From: Rhytidiadelphus loreus
Lineage: Eukaryota; Streptophyta; Bryopsida; Hypnales; Hylocomiaceae
Direction of reading: 5' to 3'
NCBI GenBank assembly: GCA_947034895.1
Contig: OX344762.1
Coordinates: forward strand, 48,463,087 to 48,527,086
Length of the DNA: 64,000 nucleotides
Positions 5,554-44,899 of this stretch are shown one piece after another. Both the position numbers and the translations under genes were made by a program. Each line of letters begins with the position of its first letter. Positions within the stretch are counted from its first letter, which is position 1. The notes below the pieces were generated by a model, which was not told where the DNA came from, searched no databases, and saw only the letters and a list, made by a program, of their open reading frames with translations.

Positions 5554-5652
5554 CAAGGTTGTCTTGTCTGATATATTTTTGGGTTTAGGCGTCGTGTATG
5601 ACGTCTGACGTCGCGTGTCGCGTGTCACGAAGTGTCGAGTTTACTTGACATC
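5554..5652 (+). repeat. Left terminal region of the giant hAT
   Basis: The terminus CAAGGTTGT matches the right terminus CAGGGTTGT (reverse complement) at eight of nine bases. Looser similarity follows: GACGTCGCG near 5606, TCACGAAGTGTC near 5625 and TTTACTTGAC near 5640, all with counterparts in the right end. Just inside is a G-run followed by AAAAAATTTTACCCC (5660-5683). Confidence 0.85.
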
Positions 5653-5734
5653 GCGTCGCGGAGGGGTAAAAAATTTTACCCCATGGTAAATAGATTTTGC
5701 CTACGTGGCAGGGCTTCAGAACTGACGTGGACAG

Positions 5735-6105
5735 CCAGCGTGGGCGACTGCGGGTGTGGGCACATGCAGGTCTGCCTTGGGCGACCTCGGGTGGAAAAAT
5801 TGAGGCAACTACGAGTGAAGGGGCGACTGCGGGTCTGGGGCGCTAGGGCGACTTCGGGTGAAGGGGCGACCGCGGGTGGAAAAAATAGAGGCGACTGCGG
5901 GTTTAGGCTTGAAGGCGACTGCGGGTGAGTGGGCGACTGCGGGTCAGGGGCTTTAGGGCGACTTCAGGTGAAGGGGCGACCGCGGCTTCGGGTACTGAGG
6001 GCGACCGCGGGTCCAACAGGTAGGGGCGACTGCGGGTTACAGGGCGACTGCGGGTCGGAGCAGCAGACAGCGACCGCGTGTTCCAGGGCGACCGCAGGTT
6101 CAGTT
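5735..6105 (+). repeat. Left subterminal array of GGGCGACTGCGGGTC
   Basis: About fifteen copies of GGGCGACTGCGGGTC or close variants (CCGCGGGT, TTCGGGT) are spaced irregularly, all in one orientation reading inward from the left end. hAT transposases are known to bind short repeats clustered near the element ends, and this position fits that role. The GC-rich array stands out from the AT-rich surroundings, and open frames across it are artefacts. About 520 bp of gene-free DNA separates it from the 3' end of the transposase. Confidence 0.85.
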
Positions 6106-6626
6106 TAAGATTTCAGTTTGGCATATTTAGTCTTTGAAGTAACACGTCACATAGGTGTTTTATAAGCGCAGAATTAGGTGCTACGTTATATTGGGGTTTA
6201 CAATTTACAAGTGCAAATAATAGAGCCCATGAAATGTAAATTGGACAAACTTCTCTAATCCCAAAAATTCACCCAGTATAAGGCCACAATAATAATGTCA
6301 ACAACGATTATATTAATTAGTCATCGATATTGCTTTGAGGCGGACTTCAAATGTAGCCATACTTGCATTGCACTTTTATAACCTCGTTGCAGTCATCACC
6401 TAACTGCCTACCAATTAGAACTCAACATATATTTTAAAACCGGTAATCTGTCCCTCACTCTAATATGCTCATATGCTTGATGAAGCATTACAAAATCCTT
6501 ACACATCAGGATGAAGGCTCAAAGCTTGAACTACAAAGATTTGCTACCTAACATATAAGCTAAAACCTTATAACTATAATTATAACTATAACTATAACTA
6601 TAATTATTGTCTACTTCTCTAGTACT

Positions 6627-9600
6627 CTAGTCACCAGGCGTGAATGTGGAATCGCTCGGCACCTCATCAGCATTAGGGTCTGTATCTTCGTAAGACTCTT
6701 CGTTGCTCCTGTTGTCGCCCGAGCTTTCGATTTCATCATCTTCCCTTGTTACTACTTCGATTTGTACCTCACGCTCTACCTCTGAGTTCAGATTTCGAAC
6801 TTCTGTATCTACACCACTGAACCCTTCAGTTTGCACAAGTCGTTTCGTGAGCCTCAACGCATCCGTAGTTCCATCCATGTTGGATGCAGGGTGTCGCCCT
6901 CCTCTACTTGATTGTCCAACATTCTGGGTGGAACATCCCGCTCCAATGGTACACCGTTGGACAATTTGAGTGGGTCGTTTAGGATTTCGAGGTCCCCTCT
7001 CGTCAACCCTCCTAATACGCCTTTTTTGGCCTCTACTGTTGCGCCCCTGGATTCCTAATGATGATTCGCCAAGGCCAGACACGGATGAAGGTTGAGTGGG
7101 TTGTGGAGCTGAGCCGTGAACCTCTTCATCAATCGTCCGTAGAGCACCTCCACGCACCGGTGGCCTTGTTGGAAGGGTTGGGATAGACCTCCTCACTGTT
7201 GCCACATTTGTAGTCGTCTCTGGATTCAACGGCACATTCCGACTTCGATTCATAACATATGCCAAAGGCACATCATCATCATCATCTGTAGTAACAGTTG
7301 TTCCGAGGGTAGATGCGTTCAATACAACGGAATTTGGTATTCCCTCGTGTACAACTTCATTGACTTCGATGGCCTCTTCTTCATGTTCGCTTCTCATTGG
7401 AACTTGTGCACTGCTTCTTAAATTGCGGGCCATATTTGGAGGCGAACTAATTGATATTGGAGATCTAGCTTCTTCCTCTACGGGTGCCATGGGAATAGGT
7501 ACGCCTTCGTCATTGTTGTCGGGGGTGCTTTCCCTCCTCAGTGATGCATGTGTTGGCGAAATTGCATCCATATTGTACACGACGTTCTGCGGTGGACTGC
7601 GTACAGGTGAATTTCCCGGAGAAACATACCCATCGTCACTAAAATCAAATGTATTCCCGTATATTGGTCGTGGAGGACTATGTGGCGGCCTAACCATTGC
7701 ATTCCAAGGATTGTTGCGCAACCGATCCTCTTCATCCCTGCGGTTCTCGCGTTCTCTCATAAAATCAGGAACAACGTCATCTTCTTCCCCTGAAGACAAA
7801 GGCCCATCACGCTCGTCCTCAACGTCTCCATCTGCAAGCATCTGGTCGTAAAAAATGGCTGGGTTGTGTCCACGTTTTTGACGTTTAAGTTTGTTGTTCG
7901 CGTAGATATACACCAATGTCTCTGCCTTTGTCGTGGCCAAGCGGTTTCGCACTTTATTGTGCACAAAGGAATACATGCTCCAATTCCTTTCACACGAAGA
8001 TGCAGAGCACGTCAAACCGAGAATTCGCTTTGCAATTTTTGGAAGAGCATTGCCCCCCACACGATTCCACCATTGATGAGGCAATAATTGACATTCAATG
8101 ATATCGGGAGCCTCATGTAAAGGATTGAATGCACCTGTCTTCTCTTCAAATTGAGTTAGCTCCTGCATTGCTTCCACCACTGACACGTTCAATGGTACAC
8201 TCAGTTTTCGTATGACTCGATTCAAAGCTCCCTTCGCGTAGCCATTGTTATGAATAGCCTCCACGTCACTCAAGTATGGATTTAGTAGTGCCCCCGCATA
8301 GTGTAGGTCAGTAATCATCAACTTCCAACGAGCATCAAATTGTTTCTCATATCGTGTTGCCACCACTGGATCAAGGAAAAATGGAGCATTCTTGAGAGAA
8401 TAAATGTGCTCCTTCAAGGCTGTCATCATTACTAAAGCTTTCGGCATTGCCGGGACTTTTCCATCAAAATGACGAAGACAAAGCAGCACGAGCTCTACCA
8501 TATGGAGGAAATTGTTGCATTGAACCCAGAACTCTTCTGAACGGATATCTTGCCTTGCAAGTTTGGCCTTGCCCATAATGAAATGTCCATTTCTGCGGTT
8601 TTGCAAACTCAACTCGAACGTCATGTATGTCTCATCCAGTGTCACGTTGTGCACTGCTTGCTTGCAGTCTACCAAACGATCAATCATCAAGAAATTTGTA
8701 GCAAAACGTGTTTTGTTTGGAAGTCTCAACACTTTGTTTGGTGAAAATCTCCGAAACAACGCCAAAGTATGTTGGTATTTCTTGATGAACTTCACAATTG
8801 ATGAAGCCTTTTTTACCAACTCCTTTACTCTCTGATCCTTTCCCCAGTCTTCTAAGAGTAAGTCCAAAATGTGTGCCGCACAACCCTGCCTATAAATGTG
8901 AGGGTACCTTTCTTCCAACCTTGCCATCGCCCCCGTCATGACTGCAGCATTGTCCGTACACAATTGCACAACGTTGGTAGGCCCAACTTCCTCAATGTAT
9001 CGTGCCATCGTCTCAGTCGTGTAAGATATATCCTTCTTCTCCCCAGTACTATCCACTGATCCCCAAAAGACATCCCCGGCGGGACACACCAACATCATAT
9101 TTAGTAATGGCCGTGAATTAGTATCGGACCAACCATCTGAACAAATTGTCACTCCATACTGACTTATTGAAACCCTCGTCCGCTCCGAGACCATGGCTTC
9201 AACCGATGCCTTCTTAACATCTATCATTTTCGTGCGAATCGCATTATACGGTGGCAGTTGGTACACGAATCCAGCTGCTGCAGTTTGTTTAACAGCATTC
9301 ACGAAGGCCGGGTGGCGCACAACATTAAATGAAATGTTCACCTCGTAAAAGAAAAAAGCCCACAACCTATCCAACTCTTGTTTGCGGCCCGTCTGTAATG
9401 ATTCATCCATACTTCTTTGCCGAGAAACAGATGGCATGTTCCTCCTTCTCTCAAGCGTTGTTCCAGTAGAATCTATTGAATCAGGCGTAGGATTTGGTCT
9501 TGCATTTGATTCAAAGGGATTGAGAGACCCTTCTTCTTCGACATCCAACGCAGGTGCGACAATAGACTCTGCAACATTAACTGGTGCATCATGTCTAGCC

Positions 9601-10149: not shown

Positions 10150-10440
10150 TTGGACCCGCGGTCGCCCCATGAGAGAATGCGGGTCCAAAAACCTGAAATC
10201 AGTCAGGTGATGGGCGACTGCGGGTCCAAGATTGGGCGACAGCGGGTCCAGAAGTGGGCGACTGCGGGTCCAGGAGTGGGCGACTGCGGGTTCAGAAGTG
10301 GGCGCCACGGGTCCAGTAATGGGCGACTGTGGGTCCAGAAACAGGCGACTGCGGGTCAGGAACGGGCGACTGCAGGTCTAGTAATGGGCGACTGCGGGTC
10401 CAGAAACAGGCAACTGCGGGTCCAGGAACGGGCGACTGCC
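10150..10440 (-). promoter_or_regulatory. GC-rich 15-mer array upstream of the transposase
   Basis: About eleven copies of GGGCGACTGCGGGTCC on the plus strand, roughly every 20-30 bp, with one inverted copy at about 10156. In the direction of the transposase the motif reads GGACCCGCAGTCGCCC. It sits about 250 bp upstream of the ATG. Its role as a promoter or transposase-binding site is inferred from position and from the same motif at both element ends. Confidence 0.65.
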
Positions 10441-10917: not shown

Positions 10918-12525
10918 TCATTCAACATCCATTTTGGCCTTTTCTTTGCGGTCATGAGCCTCACGTTCCATCTCATACAAGACTTTCCTACCTTCCAACT
11001 GCAAATTCCTAAGGTATCGGTCATCCTTCCCCAACTTCTTTTCCAACCAAAATTGCTTGTATGATTTTTGGAACTTCAAAAGCGCCTTCAGTGCATCCCG
11101 ATGTTCTTCCAATTTTGGATCCAATGACAAAGAAACCCCAAGCTTCTTTTTCAAGTCAACTACTTCCGTAAGAGACAATGCTTGTTTAGTAGCCACGTCT
11201 TTCCAACCACACATTTCTGCAACACGGTCAAGGGGGGCTTTGTCCTTTAATGCTTTCAAGGAATTTAATCTTGATCGTGCTTCTTCCACCCCTCGCTTCT
11301 CCAAGTCTATCTGATCTTCCTCCAGCTTGCATGCTTCCATAATTTTGGCAAGCCGTGATTTCGCAAACTCATTGCTAGAAGAACTAGATCCTCCAGCATG
11401 CCGAGAAGAGAATCTAAGGTAAAATGCTTCCAAGTCTAAAATCTTTGTTATTTGTGTTGACAAAAGAACTTGCTGACTTTCAAGTTCAGCACGTAAGCTA
11501 TTCACAATATCTCCACTCAAAGTTTGCGTTTCTTGATTGCGAAGCTTCTCACATTCTAGATGCTTTTCATCCAACTCATTTAGAAGCTTCTTGAGTTGAG
11601 CTTTGTAAACAACTTTGGTGTCCAACATTACTGTGTCAGGGACAGTTCCATCTTCAACAAATTCCTCACTTCGGTACATGTCATCAACACAATCCAATTG
11701 GAACAAAGAAGGCTTCACATCTTCTTCTGTTTCCATCTCTGTCCAAAAAACATCATCTTCTGCTTCTTGCATGCATGCAAGCACATACTGCAAAACTTCG
11801 TCTTCTTCAGTGCGAGGGACTGTAATCGGATTCACCATAGCAAGAGGCAAAATATCAAGATTTTGTGGTTGTCTAGCTGATTCACCCTCTTCTTCCATTC
11901 TCAGGGGAGGTAAATTTTGTGAAGTAGAAGCCACCATCGCCATGTTTTGGGGCTGCATTGGAGGGTCTTCACCAAGGTTGTCTTCCTCTCCCGAAGATGA
12001 ATTAGATGACGTCCAATGAAACTACTCATCGGGCACTCCCTCCTTCAAGTTTTTCTTCTGGCCTAGCCCTTCACGTGGATTGGCAGATAGAGCCGCCCTT
12101 GGGATGTCTTTTGTCGGTGGAAGGCGAGCATGCTTCACTCCCTTGATTGAACTCCAATCCACGCTTCGAAACAAAATGAGTTCCGCATACACCATTGCAC
12201 ATATGTAATACGGGACTTCGCTCCTGGGCACTGAATATGTGCCATACAAGTATCGATAAATTTCGATACAACGTTGCACAAATGCATCATTACGGCATGG
12301 ATGCAAATTGGCCGTATTGTTGCGCCGATTCGTGTAGTGCCGATGATAGGGGAATAACTTGTCGATGTGGCACCACCCCACGAAGGACTTACAAGTCTTG
12401 GCGGTCCAGTGGCCCGTAATTCGATCCCAACCTCGGTAGGCCACACACGCTGGGTCCAAAAGGATGCGTCGTTGCCTAGGGTGCATGGCTCCTTTTGCCT
12501 TGGTCTTCTTCTTGTGGTCCGCCAT
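10918..12525 (-). pseudogene. Shared-domain coiled-coil cargo gene with one in-frame TAG
   Basis: From the ATG at 12525 the frame encodes a basic N-terminus and then the domain shared with the genes at 38503 and 41663: CKSFVGWCHIDKLFPYHRH, NTANLHPC, RCIEIYRYLY, VYAEL and VDWSSIKG. A TAG at about 12022-12024 ends this part after about 167 codons. The same frame continues with no shift (FHWTSSNSSSGEEDN, resembling VQWSSTSSSDEHTH in the paralogue) for about 368 codons of acidic and then coiled-coil protein, ending at 10918. The paralogue shows both halves belong to one protein, so the TAG is most simply a single nonsense change. Readthrough is possible but untested. A promoter block (12649-12708) and GC array (12747-13065) lie upstream. 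The cellular role is unknown. Confidence 0.75.
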
Positions 12526-12746: not shown

Positions 12747-13065
12747 CTAATTAACCCGCAATCGCCCTGGGGCGAGTGCGGGAAGGGACGCGTGCAGGTC
12801 TGAGAGCGACCGCGGGTAGGGCAACTGCGGGTCTAAGGGGCCGACTTCGAAGGCGATTGCGGGTAGGGCGATTGCGGGTCTAGGGCTACTGGGGATGGGT
12901 GACCGCGGGTCGATGGCTATAGAAGTACTAGGGTCCTGCGCGACTACGGGTAGGGCGACTGCGGGTCTAGGGCTACTGGGGATGGGCGACCGCGTGTGGG
13001 GCACCATAGAGTAATTTCTGGACCCCTACAGTGGGGCGACCGCGGGTAGGCGACTGCGGGTACAG
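12747..13065 (-). promoter_or_regulatory. GC-rich 15-mer array upstream of the gene at 10918-12525
   Basis: About nine copies of GGGCGACTGCGGGTCTAGG and variants on the plus strand, some in a larger duplicated unit that includes GGGCTACTGGGGATGGG (near 12884 and 12970). Toward the gene the motif reads GACCCGCAGTCGCCC, the same orientation rule as at the other cargo genes. Confidence 0.65.
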
Positions 13066-16000
13066 GGCGGGATTTTGAATTTCTGAACCTCTAAAACTTT
13101 CACTTTGAAGTTCTCTTACACAAAATTGTGGACATAAATTTTAGTTACCAATGCACTTCATAAAAATGTATTGCACCTTTTCATCTTTTATTTAAAAATT
13201 TGGGTTATGCATCTTTAGCCATTTTATTAATTATTGTTGCAACTTATTAGATTTGACATGCAAAAAGAGGATTCCCACCCTAACATCACTTTTGCAATTT
13301 CAATAAGAAAATAATCAAACATAAGAAATTTACCATCCATGATTCACATGGTTGCGTTTTATTTTCCAATGCAATCTTTATTATGTTTAGTTTGAATTTG
13401 TATGGTGAATCCATTGTAAAACAAGATCCAACTATGAAGAATGTGGGATTCTTGATCAATGTAGACCACTTTCGGAGAGCTCCAAAAGAAGGGGTTTGGG
13501 AATTGAGGGATAAATACCTTTTATTCATTTATGGTCAAGTGTGATTGACACATTATAAATTGCGTGAGAGAACAAAACTCAATATAATCAATTATACAAT
13601 GCATAGGATAGGTGTAGTAAGATGGTTGTTCAAATATCTCATAAGGATTGGGTGTGACAGCATGAGCTCCCATATAACTTTCATCATGTGCTTCATCAAG
13701 CACCGTGAAGGTGTAGTTGGGAACTAATTGTCACAATTAATTGTCATAGCTATTTCCCAGCTGATTTCATGGTTTTGTTCAAATTTTATTTATCTGTACA
13801 TTCATAGGTATCCAAACAATAAAACTTGTTTCATATTAATTAAAAGTGTAGCCATCATATTTACAAACAAAGGGATTAAATCAAGGGCATACATTTGTAC
13901 ATTTTCAATATTTGGGGATTTCAAACTTGTGAACCAAGAATAACAAGCCACAACATTTATGGGTATATATTTTATTGGGGGGGTCACATTTATGGGTATA
14001 TATTTTTTGGGAGGGGTCACATATGTAAACCATTAAAGTATTGGGCACTAATCAATTAAACATTCATATACCATGGACTGTTTAGCAAAATATGATCATC
14101 CATCTGAGATAAACAATCCATGCATTGTTTAGCAAAATCATAGTATAGAAATGTAAAATGAAGTTCTTTGTCAAGCACATTGCTATTTCACATGTCTAAC
14201 ATGACTTTAGTACTATTATCTTCATAATAACTTATTTCTTTTTATAACATCATATTCATTAAAATGGGAGTTTTCCACTGAAATGGGAGGTTTTAGAAGC
14301 ACTACAAACCATAAATTGAAGAGGATGTGTCATCAATAAATACAAAATAAGCAATATAATGACATCCAAAGTACATAATTTATTTGCATAATTCTGAAAT
14401 ACCATGAGGTAATTGGCAATTTACAGAAAGTAATCATCAAATATACATATATTGGATCTACATACTAGGAAACCAGAAGCACTAGACAACATAAATTGTT
14501 GCATTCCAAGAAGCCGATTACCTCATGTTCAAAGACTATGCTAAAGTCATCAACACCATTGCAAGTTGATTGCTTGAGAAGAGGAGTCCATAGTGTCCAA
14601 AGTATGAAGTCAATGGCAAGCTCTAACTACAATTCAAGTGAACACTAGAGACAATCCAAGAAAGGAACTTAGAAATTATAGAATAATATGCCATTCTCAT
14701 AGCCGAATGTGAGAGTATTTGTAAACGAGAATGATCCATAGTTTGATTCTAAAAGTTCCATGCTTGATTCCTTTCGTGAATTTTTGTCCACAAACTGTTG
14801 ACTTAGGCTCTAGGTAAAGCTTGCCATTGACTTCAATTTCTAGACACCTAGAGGCCTCCTCTTCTAAGCTCCATGTACAATGGTGGTAGTGCCTCCAACA
14901 TAGCCTCCGAACATGCGATAATTGGCTACCACAAATGCAACAATGTATGGTTGCTTCATCATTCTATCTCTAACTATGATTTTTTGCTACAAAATAGCAT
15001 AACATTGCAAATCCAAAGTTTGTAATAGTCACAAACATTGTAGTATTTTCATTCTTCTCAAGAAGGCTATTCTATCATAAATAGAACTACTACAAGTGCA
15101 ACCTGCTCTTCAACTTCTCCTTTGCCTCAAATATCTTTGGTCCTTGATTGTATCCAGTATATTTTGAGAATCTTTGGCTCACAATATCCCGTACATGCTT
15201 CCTCAAGGACCTCTATTGCCAAGCATCCTATAGATGGCGACCCAAATGAAGCCAAGGTTGTCTGTCATGTGTCTTGCATTGGCATCTCACAACTTCTAGT
15301 GAATTGCATTAAAGTAGAAGAGGTCATAAGACCTTAGATATTGTAGCCTACTCTTGATAATTGGAATTAGCAAGTGTCATTTCTTGCAAACCATTACAGG
15401 TCACAACAATAGACTTAAAAAATACATTATTGTCCTACATAAACAAATGAAATATGAAGATAAGTAAACATTCCAAAACATTAGACAACTGTTCTTGAAA
15501 AAAGATATTGGATTGCTAAATGAATGGATCAAAACCCTTAACCTAGAGGTCAACTACCACATCCATTTCTACAACTTAGAGATTTCTTTGCATAACAAAA
15601 TTCAGCCCAAATCAATTCCAAAGTGATATCAATTGAAGACGGCATTTGAATGTAGAAAAGGAGCTCACAAGGTGTAGGCGCTTTCTTTTGTTTTGAGGAC
15701 TATTGACAACCTTGCCATTGACGAGCATCATTCAGAAATCCATTGTCAATTATGTGGTGGTTGCTCAATACAAGATGTGCTCCAATCTTCTTCGGGATAT
15801 GGCAAACTATCTGTAGTCAAAGAAAGAATAAGTAGAGGTAGCACACTTGTTGTCACAGTCAAATTCAAGGACTAAAGTAGCATGCAAAGACTAGAAACAA
15901 ATACAAAATGTAAGTTCATTAAAACATTGGTTGGCGAGTTATACAATTACAAATATGCAATGTGATATATAGTCATTTTTCCTTTTATTGGACAAAACAA

Positions 16001-17183
16001 ATATGCACATAGTATCATCTACATATAATACAAATGAATTGAAATAAAACTAAAGTACTACAACCAATACCTACGAGGCTACAAGTCTTTGTCATTGTAA
16101 TTCCGAAATGTGAAAAAAAAACATACAAGAGTCCTTTACTTTGACCTCCATGTGTTGGATTCTATCCAATTCTTAAAAAAAAGAATGTACAGATCTAGGA
16201 TTTCTCTCTTTCCACTCAAAGAAAATAGTATTGGAGTACTTGACTGCTTTTGTGAGCTCCATAAACTTAGTTAAGTCCTCCTCTTAGTTTAGGAGGAAGC
16301 ATCCCATAATATTGTCTCTCCAAGATGGGTACAATTTCTAGGGTCTGATTGGGTGCAAGCATTGAATATAAGGAAGAAGATGATTGATCAGCATCTCATC
16401 TATTGATCCATAGCCCTCAAACGACCATGTATCAAAGAGAATCACATTCTTTGGTTAATTATGTGCTTTATAGGATAGTCGTTGACTATTATCGTATTTT
16501 CACTTGAGAACATGGAATCCCTCATCTAGATTAACTTCTCCAATGGTTTTAGAAAGAAGTCTTTGTTTGTTCCCTTCACCTTGTAGTTGCCTATCCTTCC
16601 ATGCTTGACTTTGTACTTCAATACATCCCATTACTCTTGTCAGAAAATATGCAACAAGGACTATATGCCTTGGAACAGATACTTGCAAATTTACATGGTT
16701 GTAGACCTCTTTATAGTGCTCTAAACCAAAATGTTCACAATTAAGATTAACTCCCTAAGAATCATCAATCAATGGGGTCAAATTGTAACTATGTTGACAA
16801 TTTGACATCAATAGTGATTGTTTCAAAATCATAATATATTTCATTGAATTTGGTGTATCATTTGTCTTTTGTATGACATTTCAAATCTTCACAAATGCAA
16901 AGTATCCCATTCAAATCCAAAACAACATTGAGCCATTTCTTTGTCACCCCCAATGTAAATCGGGGGAAGACTTAGTTCATCGCCTCATCTGATAGAATGC
17001 ATGCCTCATTGCTACCATATCAAGTACCTTGCTTAGGAATTACAATAAAATGTATACACAACTAAATTGTTATAGTGTCCATCATATTTTAAATGCTGAA
17101 AAATAATGATGTCAAAGAAGAAGATACCAGTACCAAAAATAACAATTAAATCACAAAATTCGTCACTACACAAACCAGGGAAA
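13066..17183. other. AT-rich internal region of the hAT, mostly without recognisable genes
   Basis: No intact gene is seen. Short open frames are scattered on both strands. The only protein-like stretch is the possible decayed coding segment at about 14560-15350 (minus). A local duplication (TTATGGGTATATATTTT) sits near 13955 and 13990. Confidence 0.5.
14560..15350 (-). pseudogene. Possible decayed coding sequence
   Basis: The minus strand contains protein-like runs such as MMKQPYIVAFVVANYRMFGG (about 14910-14970), EVNGKLYLEPKSTVCGQKF in another frame (about 14785-14840), and VRDIVSQRFSKYTGYNQGPK (about 15140-15200). They are broken by TAG, TAA and TGA codons and at least one frame change. 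The family is not recognised. It may be the remains of an older cargo gene. Confidence 0.3.
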
Positions 17184-17954
17184 AACCAATTATATTAGCC
17201 AATGTTCCAAAGGAGGAATGTGCAACTACAGAAGTATGTCTTCAAGAATATTGTCACTAGCCTCCTTCTAGATTGCCTCAAGAACATCATCCTTGGTTTT
17301 TTCCAAATTAGGCGATGACGGATGTATCGCATCTAAGTCTAACAAGGAATCATCATGTAGAGATAGTGACTTGGTGCAAACATGGTGAAGACTTGATGCA
17401 GGAGGAATTTTGACAATAATACAGAACATAATTGGCATCAAATTTGTAATAGTAAGTGGGCCTACAAGTTTGACAATTGAACAAAGAGAGTGTTTTGTAA
17501 GAAAAACATTTATTTGAAAGTCTCTCAACAGAGAGGTATTGTAAAAAACTGTATATAGCTAAAGTTCTAGCCAACCTATTTGTGCCTAATTGCAAATTGA
17601 AGTGAAGGAAGTGAATGGAAGGAGTTTCAACTCGAATCGAGTTGAAATAGAGGTAGAAAGTCACTTAAAACCTCCTAGAAGGATAACAGCCACTTGAGCT
17701 TGGATTGCTTGGCTACCTCTACTCCTTCCGCATTACAATCTTCATCCATCTCGTGTTCTGTGCCATGAACTTCTAGCCTTCGTGCCCGCTTTCCTAACCA
17801 TTGTAAAATCCATGTCCATATGGTCCTCTACACCTTTGCATTTGGCACGTACAAACTCATCTTGATTGGAAGAGCGGTGGGCAACGAGTAAGTCTACATT
17901 CTTATGAGATTTGCAAATCCTACCTTGAACTTTCTTTGTGTTCATGGTTCTATC

Positions 17955-18360
17955 CATTCAACTTGAATCGAGTTAAATGTCAAGATTAAAACCAATTATA
18001 TTAGAATTGACTTTTCGTGGGTGCATCCATTTAACTCGAATCGAGTTAAATGGCAAGATTCAAACTGTCTTCTACCACAATTAACTTTTCATGGATGCAT
18101 CCATTCAACTCGAATCGAGTTAAATGGCAAGATTCAAATTGTCTTCTACTACAATTGACTTTTCGTCGGTGCATCCATTCAACTCGAATCGAGTTAAATG
18201 GCAAGATTCAAATTGTCTTCTATTACAATTGACTTTTTGTGGGTGCATCCATTCAACTCGAATCGAGTTAAATAGCAAGATTCAAACTGTCTTCTACTAC
18301 AATTGAGTGTATTGACTTTTTGTGGATGCATCCATTCAACTCGAATCGAGTTAAATGGAA
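17955..18360 (+). repeat. Tandem repeat of 73-83 bp with a palindromic core
   Basis: Six units each contain AACTCGAATCGAGTT (first copy AACTTGAATCGAGTT), a 15-base palindrome with an unpaired centre. Cores begin near 17962, 18035, 18109, 18183, 18257 and 18340. The last unit is 9 bp longer. A solitary core lies near 17629. The motif GGTGCATCCATTCAACTCGA is conserved in each unit. The array is mirrored in the other arm at about 27093-27498. Confidence 0.85.
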
Positions 18361-20252
18361 AGATTCAAACTTCTATTACAATTGATTTTTCATAGTGGAG
18401 TAGCATTGCTATTTAATAATCCCGAAATTTGCGGCGATAATATCGGAAACTCTTGCATACGCACTACCGATTTAAAAAATGAAGCACCGACACAATTGAA
18501 TTGCAAAATTGAAATCAACTTCATCAATCATCAATGCACCCTAAAGTGAAATCTCATGAGCAATACAAATCAAAACTTGCATCCTATTCACAGGTCAAAA
18601 CTTGTATCTGGTGGCGATTCAAAGAATGTCATGTGTCCTAACCTTGAAACTCTATACTAGATTCCAAAAGAAACAAAAATTTAGAAATGAACCTGGACCC
18701 TTCAATGCGTTTTTTGGAAGTCAACAATCAATATCTTACCAAAAAACATTGAGGGTTTGGTACCCTCCAAAAGAACTCCTTGACTATGAGCAACAAAAGT
18801 GTAAATAACACAATCGCATAAACACGGAGGCGTAGAAACAGAGTGGCGCAAAAACACAAGGAGAAATAAAAAAGAAACTTGAGCTATAGAGGTTCAAAAA
18901 CATAGAGGTGCATACAGACACGCACATGAACACACACTAGCACAAACACAAGAAGCAATGAAAAAAGAATCTTTTCAACCGCACATCAAGACTTATAGAC
19001 AATTAGGCGGGAAGATTATGGCGCAAATTGCACTGAAGAATTTCAAATTCTCAACTTTCATCCATGAAATTATAATAGGATCCACAAAGCCCGATAGATC
19101 TTCTTTACAACTGTAGAGGTTAAAAAAGGACTAAAAATTTATAAGACAACAATTGATTCCCATACCAAATTTGGATTTGACATTATTGTACAGATGGTTT
19201 TTTTGTATTGTACAAACTTGCAAATAGTAAATATTAAAAAAATAAATTATTTTCTATTATATTCCACATTATATATAAATTAATAAAAATGTACAAACAA
19301 TGCATAGACTCTTTGTTTTCCAAAAGTGCATAGTCATTAGCATTTGAAGAAAAAAACTCCTATGTCTAGGGATGTATTGTGTGTTTAGTTTAGTGTTTGT
19401 AAATTATAATTAGACCCAATCCAACTTATGAATGACTTAAAAAATTAAAAACATGAACTTATAATTACACCTAATCCAACTTATGAGTATCATAAAATAA
19501 AATAAAATAAAATAAAAAAATAAAAAAATATATAATATGATGCATGTGCACATTCATGCCTACACAATTTCATTATATTCAACTTACATATTTAGTTTCG
19601 TCTATATTTTATGGCATAAATAAATTCTAGTTGGCTATGATATTTTAAATTTGGCATTTTGTAAATTGAAATTGGACCTAATCCAACTTATGAGTATTGT
19701 AAAAAAATAAATTTAATGTTGTGCATGTGTGCAAATAGGCCAAATATGGGCCATAAAATTAATTTTAAAATCTATATATAATAACACAAAATCATTAATA
19801 TTTTCCTAGTTTGGATTTTGGTTTTGTTTATATGTTCATGACTTTATGCCATGAATGAACTATGCAGAAAATTTGGACACCATACTCTAAATTTAGCATT
19901 TGTATATTACAATTAGACTCATTTCAATTTATATGTACTATAAAAAAATTTAAATTTTTTGCAATGCATGCACATAAATAGGCTTTGCTTTGAGTTAGTA
20001 AAATAATTTGAATATCCTATTTCAATTTTGTATTTTGTTTATAAATCAATGTGATGAATAATAGATGATTTGGATGACTTTTTAATTTCTACAAACAGCA
20101 TAGGAGAGGAGGTGTTTACATAAATCTCTACTTTTGATAATGTAGTTATGATTCAAATTTTGTATGTATCTAATTTTCACAATAATTATGCAATGTTTCT
20201 ATTACAATGCATTCTTTTTTTCCTAATAGTAAATAATTGGAATTCTTTTTAA

Positions 20253-20410
20253 AATTTTCTATACATAAGAAAATAATTTTTGTACATATATGACGTTATT
20301 AGTTCAAAAAAGTAAAAAGAAGTTTATATAACTATAATTTCATTAAGTTTATGGATGCATTTTTAGCCATTGTAATTGCAACATGCAATTTTTATTGTGC
20401 AAGTAATACT
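20253..20410 (+). repeat. Direct repeat, first copy
   Basis: About 158 bp starting AATTTTCTATA and ending TTTTTATTGTGCAAGTAAT. It is repeated with roughly ten percent divergence at 20928-21085. Both copies recur inverted in the right arm of the large repeat. Confidence 0.75.
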
Positions 20411-20927
20411 AATGTATACATCACTTTTGTATGGTTTGATTTATCATAGTACTTATTATTTATTCAAGGTTTTCTTTTGAAATTTAATAATTGAAAAGAA
20501 TTAGAAATCTTTAATCTTTTACCTTTTGTACTACATTTACAACAATATGCACTATGAGATTTTGTCACTTCCATTATTTAATTCTATTTATTTTTGGAAC
20601 TCATTCTTAAGATCTCACTTTTTCTAGAATGAAGCTTGACATATACCATTTTAGTTATTTTCAAAATATTCACAACATCTTATTTTCAAGATCCAAGTGT
20701 CTAGTGTAAATGTAAGTCAAATGCCACAAGAACCTAGAAAACCATTGCATAGATAAAAATCTTTTTTTTTATATTTTACTCATAAAGATAAGATCAACGA
20801 ATTACTGTCCCAATCAACAAAAAAGTGAACCACATTAAGGTGACCAAATCAAAAGAAAAATTGAATTTTCTAATAGTGATATAATATCATTTTTGAAGGA
20901 GCTTTTTTAGGGTCCACACGTCTTGTT

Positions 20928-21085
20928 AATTTTCTATATATAAAAAAATGATTTTTGTACATGTATGATTTTATTAGTTCAAAAAAGTAAAAGGAAGTTT
21001 ATATAATTGTAATTTCATTAAGTTTATGGATGAATTTTTAGCCATTGTAATTGCAATATGCAATTTTTATTGTGCAAATAATGCT
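20928..21085 (+). repeat. Direct repeat, second copy
   Basis: Second copy of the sequence at 20253-20410, ending TTTTTATTGTGCAAATAAT. The roughly 515 bp between the copies shows no gene. Confidence 0.75.
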
Positions 21086-21206
21086 AAAATTCTATTTCTT
21101 TTTTTTTATGAAAATGATTAAAAAGTTATTTGTTCGATTTGAATTTTGAATAAAATTTAGAAATAAATTTAGAAAAGGTTGAACTTGGGCTATTATACTG
21201 ATATGT

Positions 21207-24200
21207 ATATTTAGACAAGAATTGGATCAAATCACTCTAAAATGGACTAAAATAGAATTTTGACAATTATTTTTGGTTGTTCAATTTATTTTTTGTTACA
21301 GTTTTTATATTTAATCTACAACTATTAATTTCTTTAGTCCTTTTCTATTAGTATTGTACTTTAGGATTAAGATTAGCATTATTTTTTTTAATGAGGAAAA
21401 CCTATCTTTTCTGTACTATAGTTCTAATTGAAGTTTGGATATGAAGCTTGTTTACTTTTACAATGGTAGAATAAATACCTCTTATCTAATGAATATTATT
21501 ATGATAGATCCCAAAAAATATATGTTATTACATAATCATATGATAGAATTGAAGACTTTCATATTTTGTATGATATTCTAAAGTAAAAACATTTTAACAT
21601 CCATATTAAAATAAAGAACAACATCGTGGATCACTAAAGTTGCGTGTAGTGTATTTGATTTTTCATTAATTGATTTGGATATTAGTCATCAAAATGATTT
21701 AAAAAAAATTCTATCACAACTAATCAAATGTTGCTTACAAATTCTAATTTCTATTCTAATTTGAAAATTTGAGAATTTGAATATGCTATTTGAATTTGAA
21801 CTTTGGGCCTATAATCATGGTCTCTTGATATTTTGATAACAAAACAACATAAAAATTTAATTTGCACCATTATATTTTACAATGCAATGTAAATCTATGG
21901 TGAATTAAAAAAAAATTAAGCTTATTTGCATATGATATGAATTTTTTTACCTATTTTTTTAATAAATTGCCAATGATTTCAAATGTTTACAAAAAAATCA
22001 AGAAGTCTTATAATTGATAGAAGACATGCAATTTCATCCCAAAAAATTAAAAATAATTTTTTCTTGAAATTTAATTGCATAATAGATCATGCAAAATTAA
22101 AAGTTTGACCACGTGGTCTTAGGCCCCAATGTTTTATGGTTAAAGATTCAAGCATTAGCTAGCTAAGTGCTCACATGAACTCATATACGCTTTCATTTCT
22201 TGCTTTGCCTCTTACATAGCTTCTCACTTCTACATTGAAAAAATGGAAAGATAATCATGGAAATGATGGTGAATAAATAGTTAGGAACTATTGATGAAAT
22301 TTTTTTAACCCCTAACCTTCAACTTTGCTTTTAGTACACATTGATCTAGCATGCTATATCTAACTATTTTGGTGAGTTAATCTTGCATTGAAAAATCTTG
22401 GTGAGTTCAACTATGAAAAATGATTTGTTTTTGAAGCTAGGGGTTACATTCATCAAATTCAATTCAAGCAAACTATAATAGTTATATTTGAAATCTTGAA
22501 TTTAGAAACTTTGAGTTTTCAAAATATAAAGTCAATACAAAAAATTGAATATACTCAATGTTAAACCATCATAAACGTATTGAACAATTTTATACCAAAA
22601 TATCATACAGAATTTTTCATATTTTATTATCAAATCATGGATGAAATGAAAAATTAATTGAAGAGACAAAAAGAAAATAGAAAAACAACTTGCAAATATC
22701 CAAGAATAGGAAAGAAAATGAAAATTGGTAGAGAGGAATGAAAATGGAAGTACAAAATGCTAAATTCAAAATATCATGTCCAAATTGCTTTCTCTCATTT
22801 TATAATTGATGAAACTATAAACTAATCCAAAATCCTAAGCTAAATACAATGAATTTGTGTAATATTTATAGGTTTAAAATCCTAGTTGAATATAATGAAC
22901 TAGTGTATTATTCATAGTTCTTAGAACTTTTATAAGAATCCATGGTCAATATTTGTACATGCATGCTTTATTTTTTTAAATTCAATACTCATCAATTGGA
23001 TTGGATCTAATATTGTGATTCACAAAAAAATGAAAATACAATACAATAAAGCATTTCCTAAATATAGGAGTTTTTTCTTTCAAATATTTATGTGCAATTT
23101 TTGGAAATAAAGTGTATAATATATTCATGTGTTTAAAAACACTGGAATTTAACAATGCAGAAATTATTTTTTCTAAAAACATTTGATTTGCATTTTAGTG
23201 TAGTAGAAACTAAAATAATTTGCACAACAATGACAAAATACATAGAGTTTTTTTTGCTGCACCCATGAATATTTTTTTGGAGTACAATGCTTGCATTAGT
23301 TCTGACGGGGTGGTTTAACACAACAAACAATTAGTACTATCCCTTTTATTATGTTAGATTGAACATTCGCTTATAAGATTATGATATCATTTAATGGAAA
23401 AAATCAAGGTAAACTTTTAGGTGTGTGAAAAAATAAAATAAAAAATCGACTACTCTAAAAAGAAAATCAACAACTATAGCTCTCATTTGATAGCACTGAT
23501 CTAAGTTATAAAATGCCATGATCATTATAAGTTGGTGATTGTCAAATCCAAGCGCTTTTGTTAGATAAGACATTCAGAATTATTTGTGACAATAGCTTCA
23601 CTCGTAGCTTCAAGAGATGGATAGACCTTTTGATATGGATTAAAAAATGGATGACATTCATAAGTTTGTCATTTGCATCCAATGAAATCACGACTATAGT
23701 TACAATTCTTTGTATAAGACTAGAAGCATTATCTTGTACAACTCATTTTGATCATCATTGTCTTCTTGATGTCATTCCTAACAACTTTGCAATTGCTAGT
23801 GTAAAATCATGAACTTCAAGTTAGAAGCTCTTCTTTGAAAGAAATTTTGTGCCGTGGAATAATTGAAAACTGGCCCCCTTAAAATTAGTCGGAACTCTAG
23901 AATGACCATCTAGGCGTGACAAAAAGCTAATTCCATTGGTTAATCAATAGAGTCTAAGAAATTTTGACTTGATGTATCCTTATTATACAAAGCAATGTAT
24001 ATAAGTTAATGTTCATTATTATTCAAAACATGTGAATCAATCCTCGAAAATAGAAGTTACTTGATTCATCCCAAAGTGGGACTCTTCATCCCAAAACATT
24101 GCATGATTATTATTACATCTCACAAATTTAATGCTTCTCCTTTTTATTAATATTCAAAGTTCAAATAATTTCAAAGCAAGTCAATAAAGCTTCCTTTCTT

Positions 24201-24246
24201 TCCTTAAAAATCTACTTTTAAAATAAACTCACTGCAATCTTAATGA
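21207..24246. other. Spacer of the 4-kb inverted repeat
   Basis: This 3,040-bp AT-rich stretch is unique within the window. The longest open frame is 84 codons (23558-23812, plus), with no recognisable family and no promoter array. I see no transposase fragment and no RNA gene. Confidence 0.6.
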
Positions 24247-28269: not shown

Positions 28270-28942
28270 CTTACTTGTAATGGATATGATTGCCTACAAG
28301 CACGGTGATTTGCATTTGTGTAATTTGGTCTTGATATTCTCCTTCACTGCTCAAACCAAACGGTGTAATCACTAATGAGTCTTTCTATGACCTTGAATCA
28401 CTATGCTACATTTAACTACTTCTAGACTTTTGAAAGTCCAAAATTAACATTGGGAAATAATCTTCTGGAAATAATCATTTGGAGATCTCCATATGCATCA
28501 AGAGATCTATACAAAACATTCGAAGATCTATACAAACATCAAGAGATATATACAAACATGGAGAGATAATCATCTGGAGACCTTGAGGTGCATTGTCCAG
28601 AATTCACTTGAAAGTCCAGAAGTAGTTAAATGTGGAATCACCCTTGAAGTATTCCTTCTGGGAATTATTTTGTAGATTAGGCTTACTCTTCTATTTCGTG
28701 GAATATTGTAAGGAACGGACATTTGCAAATTATCGCTTTAGCTAGTGCCCAAAGTTGCAATATCGGGGACTTCCTTTCATCTAGTTTTGAACATTCAAAA
28801 GGACAATACCACATGGGACAATAAGAATAGATTTGTATATGTCTTCTGATCCTTTTTTATTGCTAAGAAGATCTTTAGTAAGGTTATGTGAGTTTCATGT
28901 TGGTCAGTCACGTGCATGACCACATCGACGCTTTGTTGTTAG

Positions 28943-29895
28943 ATGGAGTATGCAATTGAAAAAAAGAACGTCCATAATATTCCTTTTTTCATGGATGTAG
29001 ACTCTGTGCCTACAATTCCTTACTCTATTGAGGAGGTACAAAATTTCAAAGCCTTCCTAGAAGGCTAGATTTTGGAAGGAAAGGATGTGCTTGTTGGCTA
29101 TACAAAAATGCAACAATCCAATTTTTATCTAAATTCAATAGGTGTCTCAATCATGAAGTACAAGTAGTACCATATGGATAGTGATTGGCTCCTAGAGGAA
29201 GGTAAAGGAATCAAATTGTTGTAAGAGGATTCCAAAGGAAGGAGTCTATGGCCTCATGGGTAGTGGATGTCAATTGTCCATCTTCCAATGTAGAACTTGG
29301 ACGACATTTACAAGAGGTTATCTAGGTCCATCAAATATTTGGAGGTATTATGCGATGAAGATGGAAGTGGGGAGTACAAGAGATAGTTTCAGCATTTGGT
29401 GTTCTATTGGCAAGTAGTAAATGAAACCTTAAAGGAACCAATTCAATTGTCTATAGCGTAGAGGGATGACTTTTGGCCTTCTTCATCAATCAAAACAATA
29501 GAGGAGGAAAAACTTGATAAAGATGGTTAGGAGTTTGTTGAGGATGATGCCTTTGTTGGGCAATTCTGCAATCGTCCATTGCCATCTTTTTGGTTGGCAC
29601 ATGATCTTTTTGAAGGATATTTCGTTTTCATTCAATCGATTGATGGTGAAACAAAGTTTGTATAGATTGTCAAAGTTTTGTTTGATCCTTTCACTAACTC
29701 GGCTCATCTTAATTGTATACTGATTTAATACTTTTAGTCCATGTCACAAGATTGAAATCTTTAAGAGTTCTATATTGGGTGGAGCTCCACCAAAGGATTA
29801 AGTTGGAAAGACCCAAAATTTGGTTTGGAAGTAAACGAATTCTCTCATCCAAGTATGGAAGTCAAGGATCAAGATTGAAGGACATAGTAAAGTAA
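28943..29895 (+). pseudogene. Decayed gene: one frame, about 15 stops, no frameshift
   Basis: From ATG at 28943 one frame reads protein-like sequence for about 950 bp (MEYAIEKKNVHNIPFFMDVD, then later FVGQFCNRPLPSFWLAHDLF near 29549-29608). It is interrupted by about 15 stop codons, mostly TAG with a few TAA and TGA. No insertion or deletion shifts the frame, and the protein-like character persists to about 29890. All these stops can arise from Gln, Arg or Trp codons by C-to-T or G-to-A change, as expected for a long-methylated sequence. The family is not recognised. About 670 bp between it and the inverted repeat and about 770 bp after it show no gene. Confidence 0.6.
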
Positions 29896-30888
29896 AGTGT
29901 GCTTAAAATTCTATTGTCTAGTATTGGTGTTATTGATGGAAGTCAACTTTGTATAATTTTGATTGAGCATGTATGAGATATTATAGAGATACTTTGTAGT
30001 ATTTAAAGCTAAGTTGAAAGTTGCTATTTGCTATTTTATTCTTTGTTTTTTCCTTTGCATAACTAGAGATGATCTAATATAATTTTAGATTGCGTGTTAT
30101 GAAGTACTTAGTACATATTGGAGTACTATGATTTGATTTTATAGATTTGTATTGGAACTACTTTTTTACATTGTATTAAGTACCTTACACAACAAGTGCA
30201 CTTAATTGTAGTATTTAATATATTTACTATTACATTATATTTACATTGACTTGTATCTATGTCGATGTCATTTTCTTTATTTGTTCACTTTATAAATAAA
30301 AAATTGAAAATAGAATACAAGTAGAAAAAATTGGTAGAGGTTAAGACCACTTTCTATTTTCTTAACTCATTAAGCACTTGTCACAATTTTGAGAATGGGG
30401 CTAGTTGGTTGTTACAATTTTCTTGCCTATAAAGGTCATTGAGCAACAACAAATTATGTATATCTCATAGCCGGTCATACAAATTCAATGGAAATCAAAC
30501 CCAAACCATTTGAATGAAATAAATAACCTTTGACAACTAATCATTCACCTCATGACTTGGTGTTCAACAAAGGACACAATATGCACTTATATACAAAATC
30601 ACTATTATTACTGTCAACTATAATTTGTGGGAGACACTTTGACTATTTGAAACTCTCATTTTAATGGAAATTGCAGCTTACAACTAAAAAATTGAGTTCT
30701 ACTCAACTTAAATTTATTTCAACTTTACTTCAGTTTTGGAGTCTACAAATGGACAATATTATTTTGGGAGGTTCCCAATCTCCCATTTTAATGAATATGA
30801 TGTTTTATGATCCCAACTCAAAAATCAAAATAGGGTCTTATGCCATGGTACAAGGCTGCCGTTTGATGCACCACAACAATGTCTCTAG

Positions 30889-32315: not shown

Positions 32316-32316
32316 T

Positions 32317-32404: not shown

Positions 32405-32996
32405 ACCCGCGGTCGCCAGGGGCGCATGTGCTAACCCTAACACGGATACTAGGGCGACTGCGCATGGGGCGACCGCGGGTCCGGTCCAAGGATCCCTCGC
32501 GTCTTTCAAGGGCGACCTCGGATCAGGGCGACTGCGGGTCAGGGCGACCTCGGGTCCTCGAGGGGGAAACACATTTCAAAATCCCCCTTCCATCAGGGCG
32601 ACTGCGCATAGGGGGCGACTGCAGGTCAAGGAGAAAATGCAAACTCCTTGACCCGCAATCGCCCCCTACGCGCAATCGCCCATATGGAAGGGGAGGGAGA
32701 CACCAAATACTTTTCCGCCCTCTATCAGGGCGACTGCGCGTAGGGGGCGACTGCGGGTCAAGGTGGGAGCAACCTAACTATTTCAAAATGCAATCTCCCC
32801 CCTTCAATCAGGGCGACTGCGCATAGGGGGCGACTGCGGGTCAAGGTGGGAGACACCAAAAATTTCGAAAATGCAATCTCCCCCCTTCTATCAGGGCGAC
32901 TGCGCGTAGGGGGCGACTGCGGGTCCCCAGATCACTTCCAAAATCAGACTTGAGGTTCTAGGGCGACTGCGCTTTGGGCGACTGCGGGTATGGGCA
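32405..32996 (-). promoter_or_regulatory. GC-rich 15-mer array, partly in larger tandem units
   Basis: GGGCGACTGCGCATAGGGGG or GGGCGACTGCGCGTAGGGGG followed by CGACTGCGGGTCAAGG recurs at about 32595, 32727, 32811 and 32896 as paired units, with single motifs at both edges and one inverted pair near 32650-32680. Most copies read GACCCGCAGTCGCCC toward the spliced gene at 30889-32315. Confidence 0.65.
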
Positions 32997-33844: not shown

Positions 33845-34300
33845 TAGGGCGACCTCGGGTCAGGGGCGACCGCGGGTCATCGACGAAGCAAAAAACACAT
33901 TTGAATTAGGGCGACTGCGCGTAGGGGGCGACTGCGGGTCAAGGAGGGAGATTAATTTTCTGGAAAATGCAAACTCAATCTCCAGTGGGGCAACTGCGCG
34001 TAGGGGGCGACTGCGGGTCAAGGAGGGAGATTAATTTTCTGGAAAATGCAAATTCAATCTCCAGTGGGGCAACTGCGCGTAGGGGGCGACTGCGGGTCGA
34101 AGAGACTTCTTTGTGGGCGACCGCGTGTGCAAGTTTCGAGATGGTTTAGTTGGTACCCGCGGTCGCCCACGATCCGCAGTCGCCCATTTCAGCGCTCCAA
34201 AAACGCGCAGTCGCCCATTCCCGTTGTCTTCAGACCCGCAGTCACCCCTCCTCAGACCCGCAGTCGCCCCCTCCCGATTCGCAGTCACCCAAACGCACGC
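33845..34300 (+). promoter_or_regulatory. Bipartite GC-rich array upstream of the kinase-like gene
   Basis: From 33845 to about 34125 the motif reads GGGCGACTGCGGGTC, including two near-identical 79-bp units (about 33950-34107). From about 34154 to 34290 it switches to GACCCGCAGTCGCCC, pointing toward the kinase gene at 34500. Outward and inward halves thus meet near 34140, as in the right-end array (44335-44760). Confidence 0.65.
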
Positions 34301-37850: not shown

Positions 37851-37854
37851 AGAT

Positions 37855-38215
37855 GGACCCGTTGTCGCCCAGGACCCGCGGTCGCCTTCGCAAAGTGGAC
37901 CCGTGGTCGTTCTGGACCCGCGGTTGCCTAGGACCCGTAGTCGCCCTAGACCCGAAGTCGCCTTGGACCCGCGGTCGCCCACTCGCCCGGGCTCCTTCGA
38001 CCCGCGGTCGCGTTGGAGCACCTGTCCAGACCTGCAGTCGCCCCACTCTAGCACCCGCGGTCGCCCTGGAGCACTTGCGCTGACCCGCAGTCGCCCCACT
38101 TCCGGACCCGCGGTCGCCCTGGAGCACTGGGCTGACCCGCACTCGCCCCACTTTAGGACCCGCATACGCCCCAGGGCGACCTCGGGTACATCAGCGTTCT
38201 CCTCCACCCGCAGTC
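37855..38215 (+). promoter_or_regulatory. GC-rich 15-mer array upstream of the gene at 38503
   Basis: About fifteen copies of GACCCGCGGTCGCC or GACCCGCAGTCGCCC on the plus strand, pointing toward the gene, with one inverted copy near 38174. It matches the orientation rule of the other cargo arrays. Long open frames on both strands here are artefacts of the repeat. Confidence 0.65.
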
Positions 38216-38240
38216 GCCATTAAATTTTCCCTAGCATTCT

Positions 38241-44170: not shown

Positions 44171-44240
44171 GAGATTTGCGGACGTCGCAAAATTCTAAGA
44201 ACCAAATGATAGCAAAAAATAGTATATATATTATCCAAAA

Positions 44241-44261
44241 GGGTCACGCATGCAGCCAACA
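44241..44261 (-). promoter_or_regulatory. Remnant of the shared promoter block
   Basis: Read toward the RING gene it gives TTGGCTGCATGCGTGACCC, close to GGTGGCTGGATGCGTGCCC of the kinase promoter. The rest of the block is not conserved here. Confidence 0.4.
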
Positions 44262-44334
44262 AAGGTTGCAAGACAGAAAGCCTCAATGGAAAATGAAGGT
44301 GATAGCATGATGATGGGCTATTGGCTATATAGGG

Positions 44335-44760
44335 CGAGTGACTTCGGTCTAGTTGGGCGAGTACGGATAGGGCAACTGCGTATCCAGCGACTGCGGATCT
44401 GGGTAGGGCGACTGCGGGTCTGGGTAGGGCGACAGCGGGTCTCGAGAGGGCGACAGCGGGTCCAAATTGGGCGACTTCGGGTCCACCACCGGGTCTACGT
44501 ACCTTTTGCGCACCCACGGTTGCCCACCCAAGAACACTTCCTGAACCCGCGGTCTCCCTACCAAACCCGCAGTCGCCCACCCGCGGTCTCCCTCAGAAAT
44601 CCGCAGTCGCCCACCCGCAGTCGCCCTCGCCCACCCGTAGTCGCCCACCCGCAGTCGCCCTTGTCCACCCGCAATCGCCCACCCGCAGTCGCCCTCGTCC
44701 ACCTGCAGTCGCCCACCCGCAGTCGCCCCTACCTGCACTCTCCTACCCGTACGCGCCCTC
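44335..44760. promoter_or_regulatory. Right subterminal and RING-promoter GC array (bipartite)
   Basis: From 44335 to about 44485 the motif reads GGGCGACTGCGGG on the plus strand, which is CCCGCAGTCGCCC toward the RING gene. From about 44510 to 44755 it is reversed, so it reads GGGCGACTGCGGG inward from the right end, mirroring the left subterminal array. In the outer half copies alternate at 13-22 bp spacing (CACCCGCAGTCGCCC). The two halves seem to serve the gene and the element end. Confidence 0.75.
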
Positions 44761-44811
44761 CAGTTTGCCAAGTAAATGCCATGTGGCATCCACCTGGAGG
44801 GGGGTAATTTT

Positions 44812-44899
44812 CTGTAAAGTCAAAGGTAAATTTGACTTTTCGTGACGTCGCGCGACGTCTGTCTGTCGCGGTGTCGCGCTGTCGCAGCGAACAACCCTG
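44812..44899 (-). repeat. Right terminal region of the giant hAT
   Basis: Reverse complement starts CAGGGTTGTTCGCTG, then CG-rich sequence with GACGTCGCGCGACGTC (a palindrome), TCACGAAAAGTC and TTTACCTTTGAC. These parallel elements of the left end in the same order. The G-run and TAATTTTC at about 44796-44813 parallel the left-end G-run and AATTTTACCCC. Confidence 0.85.

Follow-up and report, generated by a model that had tools for sequence, protein, structure and literature searches.

A giant, high-copy hAT transposon family of about 22.7 kb with recurring cargo genes in the moss Rhytidiadelphus loreus

How much DNA, and how many genes, can a hAT transposon carry as a single mobile unit? The question is raised by a stretch of 64,000 nucleotides from the moss Rhytidiadelphus loreus (assembly GCA_947034895.1, contig OX344762.1, positions 48,463,087 to 48,527,086 of the forward strand; hereafter the window), between positions 5554 and 44899 of which an initial annotation, made from the letters alone, had placed a single 39.3-kb hAT element with gene cargo. 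Here we report that the window copy most probably belongs to a young and very numerous family of giant hAT elements in which a transposase and four recurring cargo genes form one unit of about 22.7 kb; we assign this reading a probability of about 0.85, a figure that covers its structural part only. A plastid matK on contig 489 has as its best match, at 95%, a protein cluster bearing the name of Campylium stellatum, and other mosses follow among the named matches; Campylium being a pleurocarpous moss, the host is most likely pleurocarpous too.

The left end of the element lies at window position 5554 (CAAGGTTGTC...) and the right end at 44899 (...GAACAACCCTG), and the octamer GTTTATAG borders both. 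The insertion sits in an inverted duplication of host DNA (window 2988-53199), one arm of which holds the element while the other (49550-53199) is empty. Window 2988-5553 pairs with 50634-53199 at 4 mismatches in 2566 bases, and 44900-45991 pairs with 49550-50641 at 6 mismatches in 1092 bases. Read as its reverse complement, the empty arm leads from the left flank through one GTTTATAG into the right flank, straight across the insertion point. That this arm is an assembly artefact was considered and rejected, given that the arms differ at 10 of 3658 bases and that the family evidence presented below is independent of the arm. The ends, the 8-bp duplication, the intact hAT transposase and the empty arm with its single octamer, all of which had been claimed at the outset, are real features of the window. 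The spacer of the inverted duplication also contains a tandem array, strongly skewed towards G, that repeats every 11 bp (47229-47551).

The 39,346 bp between the window ends include a separate 16.56-kb terminal inverted repeat (TIR) element at 14246-30802, with 25-bp inverted ends AACATCATATTCATTAAAATGGGAG and a target duplicated over about 5 bp, and the hAT itself amounts to 22,789 bp. Two other copies of the hAT, B (contig C4) and C (contig C3), were read from end to end. Copy B corresponds to window 5554-14245 followed by 30803-44899 in the same order, without 14246-30802, and five deletion copies (L010, L012, L026, L030 and L035) are likewise continuous from 14245 to 30803. The 25-mer AACATCATATTCATTAAAATGGGAG has 168 exact occurrences in the genome (control 0), and among 21 facing pairs hand-picked from the first 100 of these places 15 lie 16-25 kb apart, the window's own pair included and three of them at 18.3 kb. 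The existence of uninterrupted copies, together with the repeated TIR of the insert, identifies 14246-30802 as a second large transposon inside the hAT. The proposed size of 39.3 kb is thus not upheld: the hAT core is only 22.8 kb, and the remainder is the nested element. Copy C spans 18,335 bp and is missing window 10317-31097.

The large inserts have features of their own. The nested element contains a 4.0-kb inverted repeat (17176-21215 and 24238-28277, 99.9% identical and 3.0 kb apart), and the first half of one copy of its family, at locus L137, encodes a frame of 977 amino acids (aa) matching Pfam DUF7869 (E 3.1e-43), which may be the transposase of the nested-element family. Copy B in turn holds a foreign 15.9-kb insert within cargo gene 1 (CC1), from L039 5600 to L041 1478; this third large DNA element has inverted ends GCTATTCTGTGAGC and a 727-aa frame with no Pfam match.

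Patterns for the left end (34 bases, up to 3 mismatches) and the right end (29 bases, up to 3 mismatches) occur at 575 and 462 places in the genome, respectively, with a control of 0 in either case. The genome searches score or list the best 40-81 or the first 100 places, and the pairing analysis draws on 127 left and 126 right ends from such partial lists. A correctly oriented right end lies within 60 kb of 48 of the 127 left ends, compared with 4 in the wrong orientation and 1 upstream in the controls. The commonest class among these 48 spans comprises 18 at 21.6-23.1 kb (median 22.6 kb); 8 fall at 5.4-6.8 kb, 8 at 8.5-19.8 kb and 14, the window among them, at 25.8-50.6 kb. Thirty of the 48 pairs were read at both junctions, namely the 18 of 21-24 kb and 12 chosen for their spread of sizes, with the window and copy C excluded. 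Identical octamers flank 23 of them, 5 show one mismatch and 2 are unmatched (14, 2 and 2 in the 21-24 kb group), whereas 0 of 870 mispaired end combinations come within one mismatch. Chance pairing of the ends, already disfavoured by the orientation controls, is therefore excluded. Copies B and C carry the duplications GTCGGGGA and ATGCCGTG. The two ends thus do co-occur elsewhere, in B, in C and in 28 of 30 further pairs with matching duplications, which bears out the claim that they move as one unit.

A full copy at every one of the 575 left ends would bring the family to 13 Mb, or 3% of the genome, which is a ceiling because deleted copies exist. One deletion class, seen at 5 of 30 left-end loci (the five deletion copies named above), joins window 6422 to 13537 and has lost the transposase and CC1. 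The 5.4-6.8 kb class has the same two ends in its 8 pairs, and both pairs read at their junctions have perfect duplications. At locus L036 the left end abuts sequence resembling window 9507-11030, apparently a copy inserted in a copy.

The transposase is an uninterrupted 1091-aa frame whose best relative is 64% identical. In a Pfam scan of seven window frames with curated cut-offs it matches DUF659 (E 3.6e-36; 124.6 bits, cut-off 34.7) and Dimer_Tnp_hAT (22.7 bits, cut-off 21.4). The motifs SDGW, CTDNA and SCERNW are present and may provide the catalytic D, D and E of an RNase H fold; the CxxC-H-C finger resembles BED fingers. The octamers favour the nTnnnnAn bias that had been named as a hAT signature: T occupies position 2 in 32 of 55 distinct octamers and A occupies position 7 in 31 of them (drawn from 30 left-end and 27 right-end junctions; 3 of the 30 right-end loci, where the match fell short of the end, are excluded), and a second octamer set has T2 in 13 of 28 and A7 in 18 of 28. 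Among the 30 left ends read, 26 begin CAGGGTTG and 4, including the window, begin CAAGGTTG, one base off, while the window right end reads CAGGGTTG. Starships are mobilised by a tyrosine-recombinase captain (DUF3435), and Polintons or Mavericks possess a protein-primed polymerase B and an integrase and make 6-bp duplications; none of these proteins was found in the seven frames scanned, and the duplications here are 8 bp, not 6. The pattern given for short hAT TIRs in a survey of plant elements is [T/C]AGNGNNG (PMC6027215). By its transposase domains, 8-bp duplication, nTnnnnAn bias and short TIR type the element is a hAT, and its proposed identity is confirmed.

Between the hAT ends the cargo is constant in the copies read or probed, consisting of a predicted kinase, a RING-H2 protein and two coiled-coil-like proteins. 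The kinase-like frame was scored in 81 copies (the best of 1360 first-look candidates), all full length at 97-100% identity and 58 of them stop-free. It lies 10.17-10.44 kb from the right end in 12 of 12 copies with a listed right end, and for 11 of 26 kinase copies on contig C1 and the listed part of contig C2 a listed left end is found 12.0-12.7 kb away, the left-end list here being restricted to exact matches. Probes for CC1, gene 3 and the RING gene, applied to six more copies of the 22.6-kb class, all matched at the expected positions (18 of 18), at 97-99.7%. CC1, which an in-frame stop splits in the window, is open across that position in two other copies, copy B (as one frame) and one probed copy. 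The 835-aa product of gene 4 shows a full RING-H2 pattern, yet its Pfam RING scores remain below the curated cut-offs. The CC1, gene 3 and RING proteins have in common a region of about 145-155 residues with pairwise identities of 35-43% and invariant WCHI, RH and RC residues; a homologue search with gene 3 residues 15-200 returned 8 proteins only, at 59-66% identity and none with a named function. The initial annotation was right that this hAT carries genes, and its description of them as regulatory in type holds for the predicted kinase, RING-H2 and coiled-coil proteins, though not for function beyond those types.

Comparison of the window with copies B and C gives ratios of nonsynonymous to synonymous divergence (dN/dS) of 0.26-0.35 for the kinase (three pairs), 0.42-0.75 for the transposase, 0.58-0.66 for gene 3 and 0.58-0.96 for the RING gene. 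Across 26 of the 30 right-end loci (at least 150 readable codons being required) the ratio of nonsynonymous to synonymous polymorphism (pN/pS) is 0.48 (jackknife standard error, SE, 0.04) for RING protein residues 1-300, where 8 of the 26 copies have a stop, and 0.36 (SE 0.05) for the shared domain. The kinase and RING genes thus appear to be under purifying selection, and ratios below 1 indicate that at least these two have apparently been kept by selection across rounds of transposition.

A further trait common to the five genes is a 14-bp repeat, GGGCGACTGCGGGT, counted with up to 2 mismatches, which has 95 hits in the hAT core and 0 in both the nested insert and the window flanks. It forms seven arrays (Table 1): one at each terminus, the right one doubling as the upstream region of the RING gene, and the others upstream of the remaining four genes, two of them before the kinase. 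The nearest repeat stands 229-297 bp before all five start codons in the window, 180-284 bp before 5 of 5 in copy B and 180-284 bp before 4 of 4 in copy C. Gene bodies, which make up 46% of the core, have 0 hits. When the hits are rotated relative to the genes, 21 of 7596 rotations place a hit within 300 bp upstream of all five starts, and the motif read backwards yields 14 hits as opposed to 95. Between array and start codon, CC1, the kinase and gene 3 have segments of 60-89 bp that agree at 76-80% and look like copies of a single promoter; the upstream stretches of the transposase and RING genes lack them.

Table 1. Features of the hAT copy and its surroundings, in window positions
Feature	Position	Strand	Remark
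Target duplication, left copy	5546..5553	.	8 bp, GTTTATAG
hAT left terminus (CAAGGTTGTC...)	5554..5740	+	34-base left-end pattern
Subterminal 14-bp array	5742..6099	+	14 hits
hAT transposase, 1091 aa	6627..9902	-	CxxC...H...C finger from residue 41, DUF659, C-terminal dimerisation domain
14-bp array	10154..10421	+	10 hits; nearest 252 bp upstream of transposase ATG
Cargo gene 1 (CC1)	10918..12525	-	Shared N-terminal domain and C-part; in-frame stop splits it into 12022-12525 and 10918-11958
14-bp array	12754..13061	+	12 hits; nearest 229 bp upstream of CC1 ATG
Nested TIR element, outside hAT proper	14246..30802	.	16.56 kb, AACATCATATTCATTAAAATGGGAG at both ends, ~5-bp duplication TTTAT
14-bp array	32405..32989	+	17 hits; distal upstream region of kinase gene
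14-bp array	33847..34269	+	14 hits; nearest 244 bp upstream of kinase ATG
Cargo gene 2, protein-kinase-like, 530 aa	34500..36092	+	Pfam Pkinase E 5.3e-12; HND and DFG motifs
14-bp array	37857..38219	-	13 hits; nearest 297 bp upstream of gene 3 ATG
Cargo gene 3, 496 aa	38503..39993	+	Shared N-terminal domain, low-confidence linker, long coiled-coil-like helices in model
Cargo gene 4, 835 aa	41663..44170	-	Shared N-terminal domain and RING-H2 pattern (residues 575-615)
14-bp array	44406..44728	-	15 hits; right subterminal and also 236 bp upstream of gene 4 ATG
hAT right terminus (...GAACAACCCTG)	44740..44899	+	29-base right-end pattern
Target duplication, right copy	44900..44907	.	8 bp, GTTTATAG
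Empty arm of inverted duplication	49550..53199	-	Single GTTTATAG at 50634-50641

How might such a unit operate? The whole of its approximately 22.7 kb would move by ordinary hAT cut-and-paste transposition and leave 8-bp duplications; the shorter copies that were read are internal deletions of the full unit, and the 39.3 kb of the window copy is due solely to the nested TIR element. The 14-bp repeat may be the binding site of a protein encoded by the element, the likeliest candidate being the transposase with its CxxC-H-C finger, or else the proteins with the shared domain. Its terminal arrays would then serve to assemble the transposition complex, while those 180-300 bp upstream of the start codons would place the five genes under a single switch. 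That a protein of the element recognises one 14-bp code both at the ends and before every gene is a tentative proposal, which we hold to be less likely than not. A comparable arrangement exists in En/Spm, where the element protein TnpA binds short subterminal repeats and acts at the element promoter too; En/Spm is a member of the CACTA superfamily with one transcription unit, whereas the moss repeat precedes five separate genes. A role in trans is suggested for the kinase and RING proteins, which would either aid transposition through the transposase or blunt host silencing. Combined with a shared N-terminal domain that would bring the cargo proteins to element DNA or the transpososome, the single switch would make this a self-governing multigene hAT, which we regard as possible, with the odds somewhat against it; were it true, the cargo would be selected for the element and the family would be a plant counterpart of the giant cargo transposons.

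Two rival accounts dispute the unit itself. A single 39.3-kb hAT with all of its DNA as cargo would explain why the outermost ends have one common duplication and why the empty arm lacks all 39.3 kb, and spans of 39,010 and 44,693 bp with perfect duplications, read at their junctions only, exist elsewhere. It is nevertheless extremely improbable: copy B and the five deletion copies pass continuously from one side of the insert to the other, the insert has its own TIR, repeated across the genome and mostly paired at 16-25 kb in the hand-picked sample, and is devoid of the 14-bp repeats, and the commonest span is about 22.6 kb. As a description of the family the 39.3-kb unit is refuted by the nested insert, while the window copy might still move at that length. 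A macrotransposon, in which the outer ends of two neighbouring hATs were once used together, as in maize Ac/Ds, and the product then amplified, gains some credence from a 28-kb Ac macrotransposon that is reported to excise (PMC9910405), and we consider it very improbable. Size and gene order recur in many copies with independent duplications, no inner end emerges from the whole-copy comparisons (which list only matches of at least 150-200 bases), and the same repeat lies upstream of all five genes. As the present state a macrotransposon was provisionally rejected on the recurring size, but it may describe the distant origin of the family.

The other two rivals accept the unit and deny its contents a role. 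Host genes captured as passengers and left to drift would fit the stops found in cargo genes of some copies, and captured genes in hATs do exist, for example histone H3 in Pseudocercospora fijiensis (PMC6710886). Ratios below 1 for the kinase and RING genes speak against drift, as does the stop-free majority of the 81 scored kinase copies, the set within which host kinase paralogues were sought. Moreover, the three cargo proteins are mutually paralogous and have thus diversified together, and the relatives retrieved for gene 3 are comparable in identity to the best relative of the transposase; passenger cargo is accordingly improbable. The 14-bp arrays, for their part, could be mere GC-rich minisatellites with no part in regulation. 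Expansion of such repeats outside coding sequence is common, and the number of repeats in the arrays differs between copies. Against this stand an array within about 300 bp of every gene start in the window and copy B and of four genes in copy C, the few rotations that serve all starts and the paucity of hits for the reversed motif, and we judge the minisatellite account to be rather unlikely.

Several observations weigh against the picture of a coherent five-gene unit. Movement is deduced from sequence, and common expression and binding are proposals. No listed partner was found for 79 of the 127 left ends, which is uninformative because the end lists are partial, and 2 of the 18 pairs in the full-length class have no matching duplications. 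With regard to kinase placement, 2 of the 26 copies lie 10.7-11.0 kb and 5 lie 17-79 kb from a listed left end, and 8 have none within 300 kb. Stops interrupt 24 of 42 scored transposase copies (18 are stop-free) and 23 of the 81 kinase copies, best-scoring copies only in both cases. With regard to selection, one RING pair reaches the dN/dS of 0.96, CC1, compared between the window and B only, has 0.72 in its longer part and 2 nonsynonymous with 0 synonymous changes in its shorter first part, and the C-terminus of the transposase has a pN/pS of 0.81 (SE 0.25; 24 of 30 left-end loci, those with fewer than 100 readable codons being dropped), indistinguishable from 1. The shared domain has no Pfam family above cut-off, and its helical model, of moderate confidence, has no matching PDB fold. 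As for the repeat, GGGCGACTGCGGGT has 2 hits in 24 kb from eight arbitrary 3-kb loci, and gene bodies are hit-free in 157 of 7596 rotations, so that a minisatellite merely avoiding coding sequence is possible.

On the reading of a 22.7-kb family, hAT transposition can spread a five-gene unit, several times the usual length of a hAT, through a genome that holds hundreds of its ends. The system is suited to testing whether the cargo of a transposon benefits the transposon itself, and in what way a single cis-repeat might link excision to expression. There is a practical consequence as well, since gene annotators unaware of the family could attribute many kinase and RING genes to the host.

The closest parallels are found among hATs with cargo. 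ToxhAT of fungal wheat pathogens likewise places a hAT-like transposase and several extra genes between terminal inverted repeats. Other elements have inserted into it as well, and in P. nodorum its ends stand as much as 25.6 kb apart (PMC6737239). It differs in measuring 14.3 kb, in annotations that are mostly fragments and in having no identifiable target duplications for any instance, whereas the moss family has 22.7 kb, matching duplications in 28 of 30 pairs and hundreds of ends. The histone-H3 hAT of P. fijiensis is about 9.5 kb long with 99 full-length elements and resembles the moss family in its DUF659, 8-bp duplications and amplified cargo (PMC6710886); its cargo is one kind of captured gene, in one or two copies per element and inactivated by repeat-induced point mutation (RIP), in contrast to four cargo genes of which at least two are apparently under purifying selection. 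Carriage of cargo by a hAT thus does not in itself make a new class, as cargo-carrying hATs were already known.

Length in itself has precedents too. The maize Ac machinery is reported to have excised a 28-kb macrotransposon in one piece with an 8-bp footprint (PMC9910405); such macrotransposons are composites with Ac termini around rearranged DNA, while the moss family has recurring gene content and size. Gulliver of Chlamydomonas, at 7144 bp, is the longest consensus among the 276 plant hAT sequences of the survey, and is one third the size of the moss hAT; the same survey records no moss hAT in Physcomitrella (PMC6027215). Giant cargo transposons are otherwise represented by Starships (PMC11623301) and by Teratorn (PMC10175614), the latter with a piggyBac-like transposase, and their cargo is of another kind or much larger than that of the moss hAT. 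ToxhAT, the histone-H3 hAT and the Ac macrotransposon together establish that transport of long DNA by hATs and hAT cargo were both known beforehand; the apparent novelty lies in a stable five-gene hAT family, present in high copy number, that combines the two and has a shared cis-repeat.

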